Below are positions 52,378 to 57,600 of a stretch of 64,000 bases of DNA, piece by piece. Each line of letters begins with the position of its first letter. Within the stretch, counting starts at the first letter, position 1. The notes below the pieces were generated by a model that was not told the origin of the DNA, made no database searches, and saw only the letters and a program-made list of their open reading frames with translations. The position numbers and the translations under genes are program-made. The stretch spans positions 310,001-374,000 of the forward strand of contig NZ_QUHC01000005.1 in assembly GCF_003479425.1 (NCBI RefSeq), written 5' to 3'. This stretch comes from Odoribacter sp. AF15-53. Lineage in GTDB: Bacteria; Bacteroidota; Bacteroidia; Bacteroidales; Marinifilaceae.

Positions 52378-52558
52378 TTTATCTTTTTAATAGGCTGATT
52401 GTCAAGTTCACTCCTTCAACATACTGATCTTTTCAATCACTTCTAGTTTTTACGAACTCAGACAGGTGTTAGCAGAATATCCTAAAAGTAGGGACAAATT
52501 TGTTATTTCCATACGATATCGCAAAAAAAAGTACTTTTGTAAATCAATAACATACAGC
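52378..52558. other. Non-coding spacer before the broken regulator gene
   Basis: AT-rich. A -7 like TACTTTTG lies at about 52532-52539, some 20 nt before the ATG at 52559, a plausible promoter for the regulator. Otherwise only decayed sequence around the hipA relic. Confidence 0.45.
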
Positions 52559-54017
52559 ATGAAAATAGATGATCTTGAGGATATAAAGAACCTGATAATC
52601 CAGAATGAAAACGAACAAATAGAATTTAAAGAAACCACCGGACAGTTGGAGCGCGGTATGGAAACGCTTTGTGCTTTTCTCAACGGGGCAGGTGGAACCG
52701 TGTTGTTCGGCGTAACGGACAAAGAAGATAATCGGACAGGATCTGAGCGACAAGACAAAACGGGATATTATAGAAGCAATCAGGCGGATAGAGCCATTGA
52801 CTGCGATCGAAATTTTCTACACTGCCATTCCCGACACAAACAAGTATGTGATTGCCCTTTGTGTTGATCCTCAATTGAGTGCCCGCCCTTTCGCTTATAA
52901 GGGAAGAGCCTACCACCGCATGGAAAGTGTGACGTCCGCCATGCCGCAGGAAAAATATAATTTATTACTGTTGCAACGGGGTGGTAAATATGGATGGGAG
53001 GCTATTATCAATGAGGATTTAAGAATCGAAAATCTTAACGAGAACCTTATCCGTGGTGCTGTCCGTATGGGAGTTGAGAGTGGACGCTTGCCGGAGACGA
53101 CCACGATAGAAGAAATTCCGCTTATCCTTGAAAAATTCGACCTCTCATCGGGTGATGGTAAACTGAAAAATGCGGCAGCAGTATTGTTCGGCAAAAACTT
53201 GTCAGATTATCCACAATGCCTGTTGCGTATGGCACGTTTCAAAGGAACGAATAAAGACGAGTTTATAGACAACCAGCGCGTACATGGCAATATCTTTGAA
53301 CTGCTGGATGTAGCTATGGCTTTTTTCTTCAAACATCTGTTACTTTCCGGGAAGGTTGAAAAGCTATACCGGGATGAGGAACTGACTATTCCCTATAAAG
53401 CTCTGCGCGAGAGTTGTATAAACAGCTTTTCACACCGTCTGTACCACAAACCGGGCAGTTCCGTCAGCATAGCCATCTATGATGATCGCGTGGAAATCAC
53501 GAATAGTGGCACGTTCCCGGAGGATATGACCTTGGAGAGGTTGCTAGGACCGCATGATTCTGAGCCACAAAATCCTATTATAGCTAATGTCCTTTATAAA
53601 AGCAAGGTGTTGGAAAGTTGGGGACGGGGCATTGGATTGATGATTAGTGAATGCCGCCGTGTGGGACTTCCTGACCCAGAGTTTCATTCGGACGGTGCTT
53701 TTGTACAGGTCGTGTTTCGTTATGTACGGGATACTGTCGGGCAAAATTTCACAGTTACCCCACAGTTACCCCACAGTTGCCCCACAGTTTCCCCACAGGT
53801 TAAAAAAGTTTTGGTAGCAATTGACGGTAATACGTGTTCGGCCAAAGAAATTATGGAGTCAATGGGCCTGAAAGATAAAAGCAACTTTTTGGAAAACTAC
53901 CTTTATCCGGCTATAGGGTTAAAATTGGTAGAGCCGCTTTATCCCGAACAACCCAAACATCCCAAACAGAAATATAATCTGACGGAAAAAGGAAAGACTT
54001 TATTAAAGAGAGAGTAG
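52559..54017 (+). pseudogene. AlbA_2 / HATPase / winged-helix regulator, frameshifted
   Basis: Two overlapping frames together make one protein of the AlbA_2 (Schlafen-like) regulator family. The N-terminal part reads NEQIEFKETTGQLERGMETL and GAGGTVLFGVTDK; then the frame must change near 52721-52730, after which GQDLSDKTKRDIIEAIRRIE restores the family pattern. The second part runs to 54017 with a HATPase-like region (RVEITNSGTFPEDMTLERLL; ESWGRGIGLMISECRRVGLP) and a C-terminal winged helix (KEIMESMGLKDKSNFLENYL). The change equals two missing bases or one extra. It may be a true mutation or a sequencing error. Without correction the product stops at 52867 or restarts from 52797. Confidence 0.8.
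53750..53797 (+). repeat. 11-bp tandem repeat inside the regulator gene
   Basis: Four copies of CACAGTTACCC with small changes. It encodes the Pro-rich linker (TPQLPHSCPTVSPQ) between the HATPase part and the winged helix. Eleven is not a multiple of three, so gain or loss of one copy would shift the frame of the DNA-binding end. Confidence 0.85.
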
Positions 54018-54140
54018 CGAATGGCTAAAGGAAACAATAGTAAAAGCATTGCTGTGGAGTAAGTGATGTATATAAAGTTAAATCTCTTTAGATTTAACAA
54101 TCTAGTATGATTTTGGTTAATTCTTAAATCAGAAAAAATA

Positions 54141-54170
54141 TTGAAAAATGAAAAAGTATTTATATATTTG
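54141..54170 (+). promoter_or_regulatory. Promoter of the structured RNA
   Basis: TTG (54141-54143), a 19-nt spacer, and TATATTTG (54163-54170), an exact TAnnTTTG. The expected transcription start is near 54176, which begins just before the first hairpin. Confidence 0.7.
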
Positions 54171-54175
54171 CAGGT

Positions 54176-54373
54176 ATGATACGAAATAGGTAGGAGAGCC
54201 TGCCTTAAAAATATTGTGAGTTTGTGCTAATCTTAAACTGAAAATCGCCAATTTAAGGAAGTAAGGTTAGACGGTGAGTTCACGCTGGTTAGGCGTGGAT
54301 CGTTGTCTATTTACTTCCGGGCGTTTGGCGATGCCTCAGTTTAGATAGAGTGTTGACGATCCTCGCTTTTTTT
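54176..54373 (+). ncRNA. Highly structured RNA, small RNA or attenuator (novel candidate)
   Basis: No open frame covers this stretch. After a consensus promoter come a 7-bp hairpin (AGGTAGG-AGAG-CCTGCCT, 54188-54205) and a rod of nested stems: 54230-54241 with 54336-54346 (11 bp, one bulge), 54244-54251 with 54325-54332 (8 bp), 54257-54264 with 54311-54318 (8 bp), 54268-54272 with 54305-54309 (5 bp), and 54278-54285 with 54293-54300 (8 bp, two G-U, 7-nt loop TGGTTAG). A competing stem, 54293-54303 with 54356-54366 (10 bp, one mismatch), ends exactly at a run of seven T (54367-54373), as an intrinsic terminator would. The transcript would be about 195 nt. A 6S-like RNA is one alternative. It lies 245 nt before a susC start. 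Confidence 0.65.
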
Positions 54374-54533
54374 ATTGTATCATTTTTTGTATGGGGATCG
54401 GCAATATAGAAGAAATTTTCAATCAATAAAGGATTTTAGGGTTGCAACCAGACTAAAATAAACGGAATGAATAAAGACTCAAAATTTACAAGCCATGAAG
54501 AATTAAAAAGATTTTCCTATTAGAAAAATGAAA

Positions 54534-54579
54534 AAGGAGGGTGAATCCTAAACTTTTGCACGTTGAATATCACCCCCTT
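54534..54579 (+). promoter_or_regulatory. Leader hairpin before susC
   Basis: AAGGAGGGTGA (54534-54544) pairs with TCACCCCCTT (54570-54579) with one bulged A; the loop is 25 nt. It lies 40 nt before the susC start codon at 54619 and contains a Shine-Dalgarno-like AGGAGG that would be masked in the stem. Its role is unknown. Confidence 0.45.
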
Positions 54580-54618
54580 GCATCAATTAGTTTTATAAAC
54601 CAATTAATTATCAAAGTT

Positions 54619-57600
54619 ATGAAAAAAACTTATGACAGGAAATTTTTTCGGCAAAAATTACTATCGGAAAGAAAGACAGTCACTACGGTTTCCCGCTTGC
54701 TTATTGTTTTATTGCTTGGATTCCCCTTCTTTACACGGGCCGGGACGAGCGATGTTCCTCGTGTAGGGGGCTTTTTCCCCGGGATCCTAGTCAGACAGGA
54801 TACCGTGACTCGGGGAGAAAAGCCGGGAAATCAAAAACAGGAAGTTTACATGGGTGAAGTGATGGACACGGAGGGGAACCCGTTGCCCGGCGTGACCGTC
54901 TTGTTGAAAGGGACCCGGATGGGGACTTCCACGGATATGAACGGGGAATTTCGTTTTCAGGCAGCGAAAGAAGGAAAAGCGGTACTGGTTTTTTCATTTA
55001 TCGGGATGAAGCCGGTGGAAAAGGAAATGACTCCGGGTAAGAAAGTCTTGGTTCGGATGGAAGAAGAGGTGAAGGGGATCGAGGAAGTGGTGGTAAACGG
55101 GATCTACTCCCGGGATAAGAATAGTTACACGGGATCGGCTACGACTTACTCGGCGAAAGAACTGAAGATGATTGGGGCGCAGAATCTTATCCAAAGCCTG
55201 AAAACGCTGGATCCGTCCATGCTGGTCGTGGAAAGCAAGCAGTGGGGATCGGACCCGAATCGTATGCCCAAGATTGAAATCCGGGGGAAAACAAGTGTCG
55301 TGGGATTGAAAACGGAATTTGAAAATGATCCCAATCAACCCTTGTTTATTCTGGACGGGGTGGAAAGCACGCTGGAAACTATTATAAATCTGAACATGGA
55401 TCGGGTGGCCAACGTGACGATTTTGAAAGATGCCGCCTCCACGGCCATTTACGGGTCAAAGGCTGCCAATGGCGTGATTGTCGTGGAAACGAAATCCCCG
55501 GAATCGGGACAATTGCGCTTGTCGTACAGCGGTAATTACGGGGTGTCATTTGCCGATTTGTCGGATTATAATTTGATGAACGCCTCCGAGAAGTTGGAAT
55601 TCGAGTTGTTAGCCGGGCGTTATTCACCGATAGAAGGGTATGAAGGGTTTGTCGATAAACTCCAGAAGATGCAGGATTATTACATCCGTTTAAAAGAGGT
55701 GTTGAGAGGTGTCGACACCTATTGGCTGGGGGAACCTTTGAGGACTGTTTTCAATCATTCCCACAACTTGTATATTGATGGGGGAGACAAGGCGATGCGC
55801 TATGGTTTGGGTATCAGTTATAATAACCGGGACGGCGTGATGAAAAAGTCGGATCGTGACGGTCTGGGGGTGAACATTGATCTGATCTATCGCAAAAAAG
55901 GACTCCTGTTCTCGAATAAAGCGAGTCTGGATGTCACTAATTCGAAACGGGAACCTGTAGCTTTTTCTGAGTTTTCAAGGGCAAACCCGTATTACCGGAA
56001 AAAGCAGGAAAACGGAACTATCCCCATGTATTTGGAGAGAAGGACAGGGCTTTACGGGGAGGATATGTTGAACCCGTTATACGTGTGGAATATCGAAAAC
56101 ACGAATGAAACCAAGGACCTCGCGTTAAGGGATAATTTCACGATGGAGTGGACAACCCTCGATGCGTTGCGATTACGGGCTCGTTTGGGAATATCCAAGA
56201 GCATCTCGAAAACAGAAGCTTTCAAGTCTCCGAATCACACGGATTTCCTGGAGACTGAAAAATTGAAGAAAGGTTCTTTCTCCTCCAGTCAGAACGAGAG
56301 TTTCTCGTATAATGGAGATTTGAACGTTATTTTTGGTAAAATATTTAATAATATTCATCAGGTTAATTTCGTCGGGGGATGGTCGTTCAGTGAATCCCGA
56401 TCGGAAACGTCCGGTTATAGTGTTGTGGGTTTTAATGATGATTTTCACAAGAATCCGGCTTATTCCACGGGATTCCGGGAAAATCAGAAGCCAACTTACT
56501 CGAAAGACCGCAAGCGTTCTACCAGTTTTTTCATGAACCTGAACTATTCCTATAATAATCGTTACCTGATGGATTTTAACCTGCGGGCTGACGGGACTTC
56601 CGTTTTCGGTAGCAACAAACTTTTCTCCACGACGTGGGCGATCGGTTTAGCCTGGAATATTCATAATGAAGGATTCATACAAAAATTGGGATGGGTGAAT
56701 AATCTGAAAATCCGGGGATCGATCGGTAATCCCGGGAACGAGAATTTTGATGCTTACATCTCCCAGAAGACGTACGTGTACAACGTGGAATTGCAAAATA
56801 TGTTTGGGGCAAGTGCGTTGATTGAGAAATACGGGAATAAAGATTTGGAATGGCAACGGACTGTGGATAAAAATATCGGTGTTGACTTGTCGATCATAGA
56901 CAACAGGATACGCGTGTCTTTTGATTATTATTTCAAGGATACAGATCCCTTGCTCGTCTCCATCAGCATGCCCCCTTCTGCCGCGGCAACGAGTTTATAC
57001 ACGAATTTGGGAAGACAAATCTCGCGGGGATGGACGGCAACGCTGAATTATGTCTTTCTTCGGAAACAGGATTTGTCTTGTAGTGTAAACATGAATGCCC
57101 GGGCGAATCACTCGGAATATCGCGATATCGGGGATAAACTGGATTATTTGAACGAGGTGGGGAGTTCCACCGTTCTGAACCGCTATTACGAGGGCGGCAG
57201 TCCCGATGATTTGTGGGCTGTTCCTTCTCTGGGGATTGATCCGGCAACGGGACGTGAGGTTTTCTTGAAAAAAGATGGCACGCAGACCTTTTTGTATTCC
57301 GCGTCCGATGAGGTGATCGTGGGATCGTCAGTGCCAGATGTCGAGGGAATAGTCGGGATGTCGTTTTACTACAAAAAGTTATCTGCATCTTTCAATTTCC
57401 GCTATCGTTTAGGCGGGGAAACCAAGGCCTCGGCGTTGTATGAAAAAGTGGAGAATATCAGTCAGGACAATATAGCCCGGAATCAGGACAAGCGAGCTTT
57501 GCACGATCGTTGGAAGAAGCCGGGAGAGAAGTCGAAGTTTAAGGCGATCGACGATTATTCTTCCACACCCCTGTCTTCGCGTTTCGTGGTGACGGAGAAT

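Follow-up and report, generated by a model that had tools for sequence, protein, structure and literature searches.

Introduction

Bacteroidales are a dominant gut group, and to our knowledge few regulatory leader RNAs have been described in them. In attenuators and terminator-type riboswitches, a promoter is followed by a leader that forms either an antiterminator or an exclusive terminator, then by a U-run and a downstream ORF. 6S RNA, a decoy that binds RNA polymerase, is usually present in one or two copies per genome and is not tied to a downstream ORF. The multi-copy Bacteroides RNAs closest to the present subject, FopS and GibS, are tied to SusC genes, and FopS is described as repressing SusC translation (PMC11697453). 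Bacteroidales-1 (RF01693) and the other Bacteroidetes motifs of PMC2864571 are also structured RNAs of Bacteroidales; Bacteroides-2 and GUCCY-hairpin stand there as table entries without an Rfam number. Term counts over PMC11109978 and PMC8632094 returned none of the words Parabacteroides, Porphyromonas, Prevotella or those beginning with Bacteroid.

Here we describe an element at positions 54176-54373 of the window, by which we mean the whole 64,000-nt stretch of DNA that was analysed. It has the layout common to attenuators and terminator-type riboswitches and differs from them in a rod that spans nearly the whole leader, an extra helix past the U-run, very varied downstream genes, the lack of an Rfam match at gathering score and the lack of a known ligand. 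It is like FopS and GibS in its copy number and its link to SusC genes; FopS differs in being described as a single-stranded 5' stretch and a lone terminator hairpin (PMC11697453). With 6S RNA (RF00013) and 6S-Flavo (RF01685) it shares a rod-like shape of ~190 nt, and it departs from them in being multi-copy, in lying mostly 5' of protein genes and in having an alternative terminator-like fold. Judged from its anatomy, the element is probably a cis-acting two-state leader RNA, either a transcription attenuator or an orphan riboswitch-like element.

Results

Predicted folds of the element in the window

The 198-nt element was folded, as an earlier note on this DNA had proposed, and reached -74.1 kcal/mol, compared with -48.1 +/- 3.7 kcal/mol in 200 shuffled sequences (z -6.94), no shuffle being as low. 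The features to which the text refers are as follows.

54141..54170, + strand, promoter-like sequence of the Bacteroidota type: TTG at 54141-54143 and TATATTTG at 54163-54170
54188..54205, + strand, 5' hairpin in the predicted fold; relatives carry a hairpin of varying sequence at the same place
54216..54366, + strand, predicted rod of fold 1: 54234-54241 with 54336-54343, and 54244-54251 with 54325-54332
Inner helices of the predicted rod, + strand: 54257-54262 with 54313-54318, 54268-54272 with 54305-54309, and apical 54281-54285 with 54293-54297
54216..54283, + strand, predicted first hairpin of fold 2: P2 (54227-54234 with 54263-54270), extended by P0 (54216-54223 with 54276-54283)
54293..54373, + strand, terminator-like domain of fold 2: PT (54293-54303 with 54356-54366) and P3 (54306-54310 with 54345-54349)
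Rest of the terminator-like domain, + strand: P4 (54320-54324 with 54331-54335) and the U-run, seven T at 54367-54373 that close the element
54357..54400, + strand, predicted helix PD, 3' of the U-run: 54357-54362 (the PT 3' arm) with 54395-54400; fits fold 1 only
54467..54523, + strand, putative 18-codon small ORF between the RNA and susC; similar ones in L001, L116, L117 and L124
54619..57792, + strand, putative regulated gene, for a SusC-like TonB-dependent receptor with CarbopepD_reg_2 and Plug

Folds 1 and 2 are mutually exclusive because each takes strands of the other. The earlier note had read the rod as five nested stems of 11, 8, 8, 5 and 8 bp; a nested rod is indeed present in the predicted fold, with helix lengths somewhat unlike these. 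The competing pairing that it had proposed, which is PT, contains a single U-U mismatch and is otherwise perfect, with the seven T directly 3' of it, and the promoter that it had seen corresponds to the promoter-like sequence listed above. In the window, fold 1 has an energy of -74.0 and fold 2 of -56.9 kcal/mol, and forcing P2 alone gives the complete fold 2. The terminator-like domain by itself folds at -30.9 kcal/mol and is followed by U7; by sequence and energy, fold 2 thus contains a hairpin and U-run that resemble an intrinsic terminator.

Distribution of the family and comparison with known RNAs

The orthologue of the element at L001 is 92% identical, with substitutions on both sides of stems, and blastn found copies in 8 of the 56 genomes of the family to which Butyricimonas synergistica belongs, several copies in some of them. 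A covariance model, R1, was built on 21 copies, the window copy included; within the window it matches a single place, this element, by construction since the copy is in the training set. At E <=0.01, R1 had matches in 30 of those 56 genomes, one of which, of 2.6 Mb, had 34, and at E <=1e-3 it matched 23 of 35 genomes drawn from 80 loci. Matches numbered 2 in Bacteroides fragilis Q1F2, 7 in Phocaeicola massiliensis, 9 in Parabacteroides gordonii and 11 in Butyricimonas synergistica. Across the order, which from the named loci we deduce to be Bacteroidales, 118 of 393 genomes matched at E <=1e-3, with 8 candidates scored in each, so that copy numbers from this search are lower bounds. A phylum-wide draw gave 14 positives in 395 genomes at E <=1e-4, without placement inside the phylum. 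The search across Bacteroidales and the covariance model that had been suggested in the earlier note thus yielded a multi-copy family.

From 127 aligned rows, removal of 4 rows and of identical cores left 121 distinct members, weak and tandem members being retained. TANNTTTG lies 5' of 103 of these, compared with 9.5% in simple shuffles. A T run of at least 5 is found in 90 of the 121 (24% when shuffled) and one of at least 4 in 107, leaving 14 without a detected T run. Tandem arrangements of the leader, or decayed forms of them, were seen at G855:C2 (108499-108644 and 108795-108980), L133:3879-4009 and L120:3842-3946.

The whole window and 20 relatives were searched against Rfam 15 at gathering score, a further check proposed earlier, and nothing matched over the element; the only matches were cobalamin riboswitches and tRNAs elsewhere. 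At E up to 5, positions 53800-54700 gave five sub-threshold matches, two of them in or just before the element. One is GibS (RF04182), which at 54115-54228 scored 22.2 bits where 115 are required, placing the element outside that family, and the other is U7 (15.4 against 34 bits). In two relatives, sub-threshold matches overlap the microRNA models MIR2599 (33.3 against 120 bits) and mir-5984 (30.7 against 95 bits), and are taken as chance matches to a rod. RF01693 was absent both from the gathering-level matches of the window and those 20 relatives and from the sub-threshold ones obtained with 7 relatives and with 901 nt of the window. Overall, the family appears to be undescribed in Rfam 15 and in the literature searched, a search outside which lay most subscription papers and preprints. 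The window itself contains three cobalamin riboswitches (RF00174; 15439-15627, 31268-31474 and 31519-31719), of which two are divergent neighbours.

The rod shape and the length recall 6S RNA, and the earlier note had regarded the element as possibly 6S-like. Neither RF00013 nor RF01685 was among the Rfam matches to the element, whether at gathering score or sub-threshold, in the window and relatives. RF00013 was silent in all 6 carrier genomes and positive in 5 of 14 controls, a comparison that is weak alone since the model may miss a 6S RNA of Bacteroidales. Against a polymerase-binding decoy stand also the 34 matches in one genome (E <=0.01) and the position of most members 5' of protein genes. 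We therefore rejected this reading, to which we give practically no credence.

Covariation in both folds

In order to assess pairing in a way that leans less on alignment, an arm-swap test was used in which each member's own helix arms were compared with arms exchanged between members. From the 104 members having a T run and enough flank, 69 non-redundant members were taken, a set in which kinship is thinned and residual kinship remains. For fold 1, z was 30.3 for P1a, 16.2 for the core and 23.6 for P1b; for R0, it was 6.2; for fold 2, it was 11.6 for P2, 6.0 for P0, 8.4 for P3, 10.3 for P4 and 10.6 for PT; and for PD it was 9.2. None of 2000 permutations was as high for any of these helices. 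Among 18 control pairs of arms for which no pairing is proposed, z ranged between -1.5 and 2.5, and 15 of 2000 permutations were as high as the top one. On the unthinned set the ten helices had z from 6.8 to 40.6. The tests of PT, PD and R0 are not independent of one another because one arm is common to all three.

The alignments were also scored for pairing and for double changes. In the 21-copy alignment, fold 1 reached 87.1% pairing and 89 double-change cells and fold 2 reached 90.5% and 30, slid versions of fold 2 showing at most 54.6% pairing. Two counts for fold 2 in this alignment did not exceed shuffles: that of pairs showing a double change, for which 207 of 500 shuffles were as high, and that of further pair types, for which 466 of 500 were. 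The larger alignment, A4, was fitted to fold 1 and has 106 rows, among them 3 opposite-strand rows and a decayed tandem row, which were dropped later. It contained 789 double-change cells for fold 1, compared with 100-137 when slid, and for fold 2, to which it was not fitted, 196 compared with 24-67; all five measures for fold 2 were above all 500 shuffles.

All ten helices of the two folds thus co-vary (z 6 to 30); a lack of covariation was among the outcomes that the earlier note had named as refuting its reading. Since compensatory changes occur in both of two exclusive folds, structure by chance is excluded on this comparative evidence, which argues that the two mutually exclusive folds are both under selection.

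Energetics and the helix past the U-run

When sequences up to the U-run were folded, 99 of the 107 members had the rod in their minimum-energy structure and 8 had PT. As the rod is the favoured fold in so many members, the terminator state, if used, would have to arise kinetically or be maintained by a factor. When growing prefixes of the window copy were folded, the best structure contained P2 at lengths 96-120, lacked both P2 and the rod core at lengths 126-150, and contained the core from 156 and the rod from 168, with PT at no length. Prefix folding thus does not reproduce a simple kinetic path, because PT is absent at all lengths and P2 is confined to 96-120.

PD was predicted in 37 of the 107 members, always together with the rod, and a tendency to pair is also seen in the sequences flanking its 3' arm (z 6.0 on the unthinned set of 104). 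Because this co-varying helix past the U-run is compatible with fold 1 only, the read-through RNA seems to matter, as selection 3' of the U-run suggests. The position of PD between the U-run and the start codon would also suit a switch in translation or RNA stability, in which transcription would pass through the leader every time and the folds would control decay, or the access of ribosomes, at the start codon close by. A small subclass (L178, L180, L191) in which the start codon lies almost directly 3' of the U-run fits such a switch as well. It would, however, make needless the PT hairpin and U-run, which resemble an intrinsic terminator, and we regard it as quite unlikely.

Genes downstream and upstream of the element

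In 84 of the 121 members, a same-strand ORF of at least 50 aa (at least 20 at contig ends) begins within 140 nt, so that the element lies 5' of, and in the sense of, a putative regulated gene. The other 37, some of them at contig ends, lack such an ORF within that distance, and the window belongs to these, its susC beginning 265 nt past the core. The ORF start falls 60-79 nt past the core in 52 of the 84, and in 36 of 68 after removal of 16 paralogous genes (plain counts). By a crude test, 50 of the 84 downstream ORFs have signal-like N-termini.

These numbers bear on the possibility that the element is a free trans-acting sRNA of ~195 nt, made in many copies with constitutive termination at the U-run and with incidental neighbour genes. 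The promoter-like element and terminator-like hairpin would serve such an RNA, and the 265-nt gap in the window and the 37 copies without a close ORF suit it. Multi-copy trans-acting sRNA families are, moreover, known in Bacteroides, FopS being one (PMC11697453). The recurrent spacing of the start codon in 52 of 84 speaks against it, as does the covariation of PD (n=69) with the pairing of its flanks, which would be superfluous for a terminated RNA. We consider a free sRNA unlikely and the cis-acting two-state leader the preferred reading.

Pfam was run on 30 hand-picked first genes out of the 84: 19 had a match above cut-off, 3 had one below it only and 8 had none. Matches above cut-off include LRR/BspA, BACON, FGE-sulfatase with a glycine-rich domain, YidD, TerB, DUF4595, CARDB and RNase_T; in the first gene of L129, HATPase_c_2 lies slightly below cut-off. 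The gene downstream of the B. fragilis copy (L259) encodes a polysaccharide-export protein. Since the downstream genes are so varied, they indicate no ligand or specific pathway. Anti-phage defence was tried as a common theme and rejected: PADLOC matched 3 of 10 hand-picked proteins, namely the second gene after the RNA in L264 (GmrSD-like), L247 (a viperin-like radical SAM protein) and L172 (an exonuclease), and no enrichment can be claimed.

A similar SusC lies 3' of the RNA in the window, L001, L116, L117 and L124, and the immediate upstream gene differs in L117 and L124. Control of nutrient uptake, which the earlier note suggested, is too narrow a reading: in Butyricimonas there is a link to SusC, but SusC is just one of many putative targets. 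Some Butyricimonas-like and Sanguibacteroides copies have five- or six-codon ORFs (MNEPPH, MDEPPH, MDEPH, MNKSPG, MDEPPD) at +62 to +69. In a subclass (L178, L180, L190, L191, L158), a small ORF that we take to resemble an HTH protein lies at the U-run or close to it; in the sole ORF of this subclass that was scanned, that of L178, Pfam had no match. Five copies (L118, L122, L131, L151, L152) recurrently have a small antisense gene just 3' of the RNA, presumably Xre-like. An inverted repeat, GGGTGA...TCACCC, lies 5' of susC at 54536-54577 of the window and also in L001, a possible operator or second promoter.

Upstream, a split AlbA_2/HATPase_c_4 regulator gene sits between cobS and the RNA. 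It occupies 52466-54017 in two overlapping frames, one with SLFN_AlbA_2 and the other with HATPase_c_4 and Fic-like_C, for which "broken regulator", the term used in the earlier note, is fair. The cobS-RNA interval gave nothing at E <=1e-3 in blastn against L001-L080. The CobS encoded in the window shares 90% identity with its counterpart in Candidatus B. faecavium, by which the DNA is probably that of a Butyricimonas.

Copies near mobile DNA

One copy (L127:9542-9679, on G001:C34) has its 3' half ~5.15 kb away, and TTGGCGAT flanks the insertion at both junctions; the RNA gene can therefore be a target of insertion or integration. Phage-type integrases (Pfam) lie near two copies, at L123:5417-6661 and L128:2991-4217. 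Seven viral contigs (L262-L268) match one exact pattern of the element, and some of these copies precede apparent cargo genes: in L266 the RNA is followed by an HSDR_N protein, and in L264 a 193-aa protein comes first and a GmrSD_N protein second. A search for similarity to plasmids or phages at the DNA level gave no match.

The split copy, the two integrases and the viral contigs would suit an element that acts as DNA, for instance as the attachment site of an integrase or as a mobile hairpin repeat. The promoter-like element, the U-run, the spacing of start codons and covariation in two folds point instead to a function as RNA, and we hold the DNA-level reading to be very improbable.

Discussion

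The two co-varying exclusive folds, the terminator-like hairpin with its U-run and the many starts at a similar distance agree with the attenuator or riboswitch-like architecture that the earlier note had put forward. Transcription, termination and switching of the leader, as inferred from this anatomy, could proceed as follows. The first hairpin, P0/P2, would form early in transcription. If it persists, the second half would fold locally as PT-P3-P4 and RNA polymerase would stop at the U-run. If instead UUGGCG and CGCCAA, and then the flanking helices, invade the first hairpin, a stable rod would form, the terminator would be blocked and transcription would continue. On read-through, PD would capture the PT 3' arm and the downstream ORF would be made, here the small ORF and then SusC. 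The balance between rod and terminator would be tipped by some signal, for which internal loops of conserved sequence around the central helix are the likely binding site.

We lean towards the view that the element represents a new and widespread class of Bacteroidales leaders, with up to dozens of copies per genome, which would place diverse surface and accessory genes, and apparently some phage cargo, under one shared signal by strand exchange between rod and terminator across the whole leader, with read-through locked by a helix past the terminator. If this is true, one common RNA switch would set part of the cell-surface repertoire of these bacteria, including LRR/BspA and BACON proteins, SusC, one capsule-export-type gene and accessory genes.
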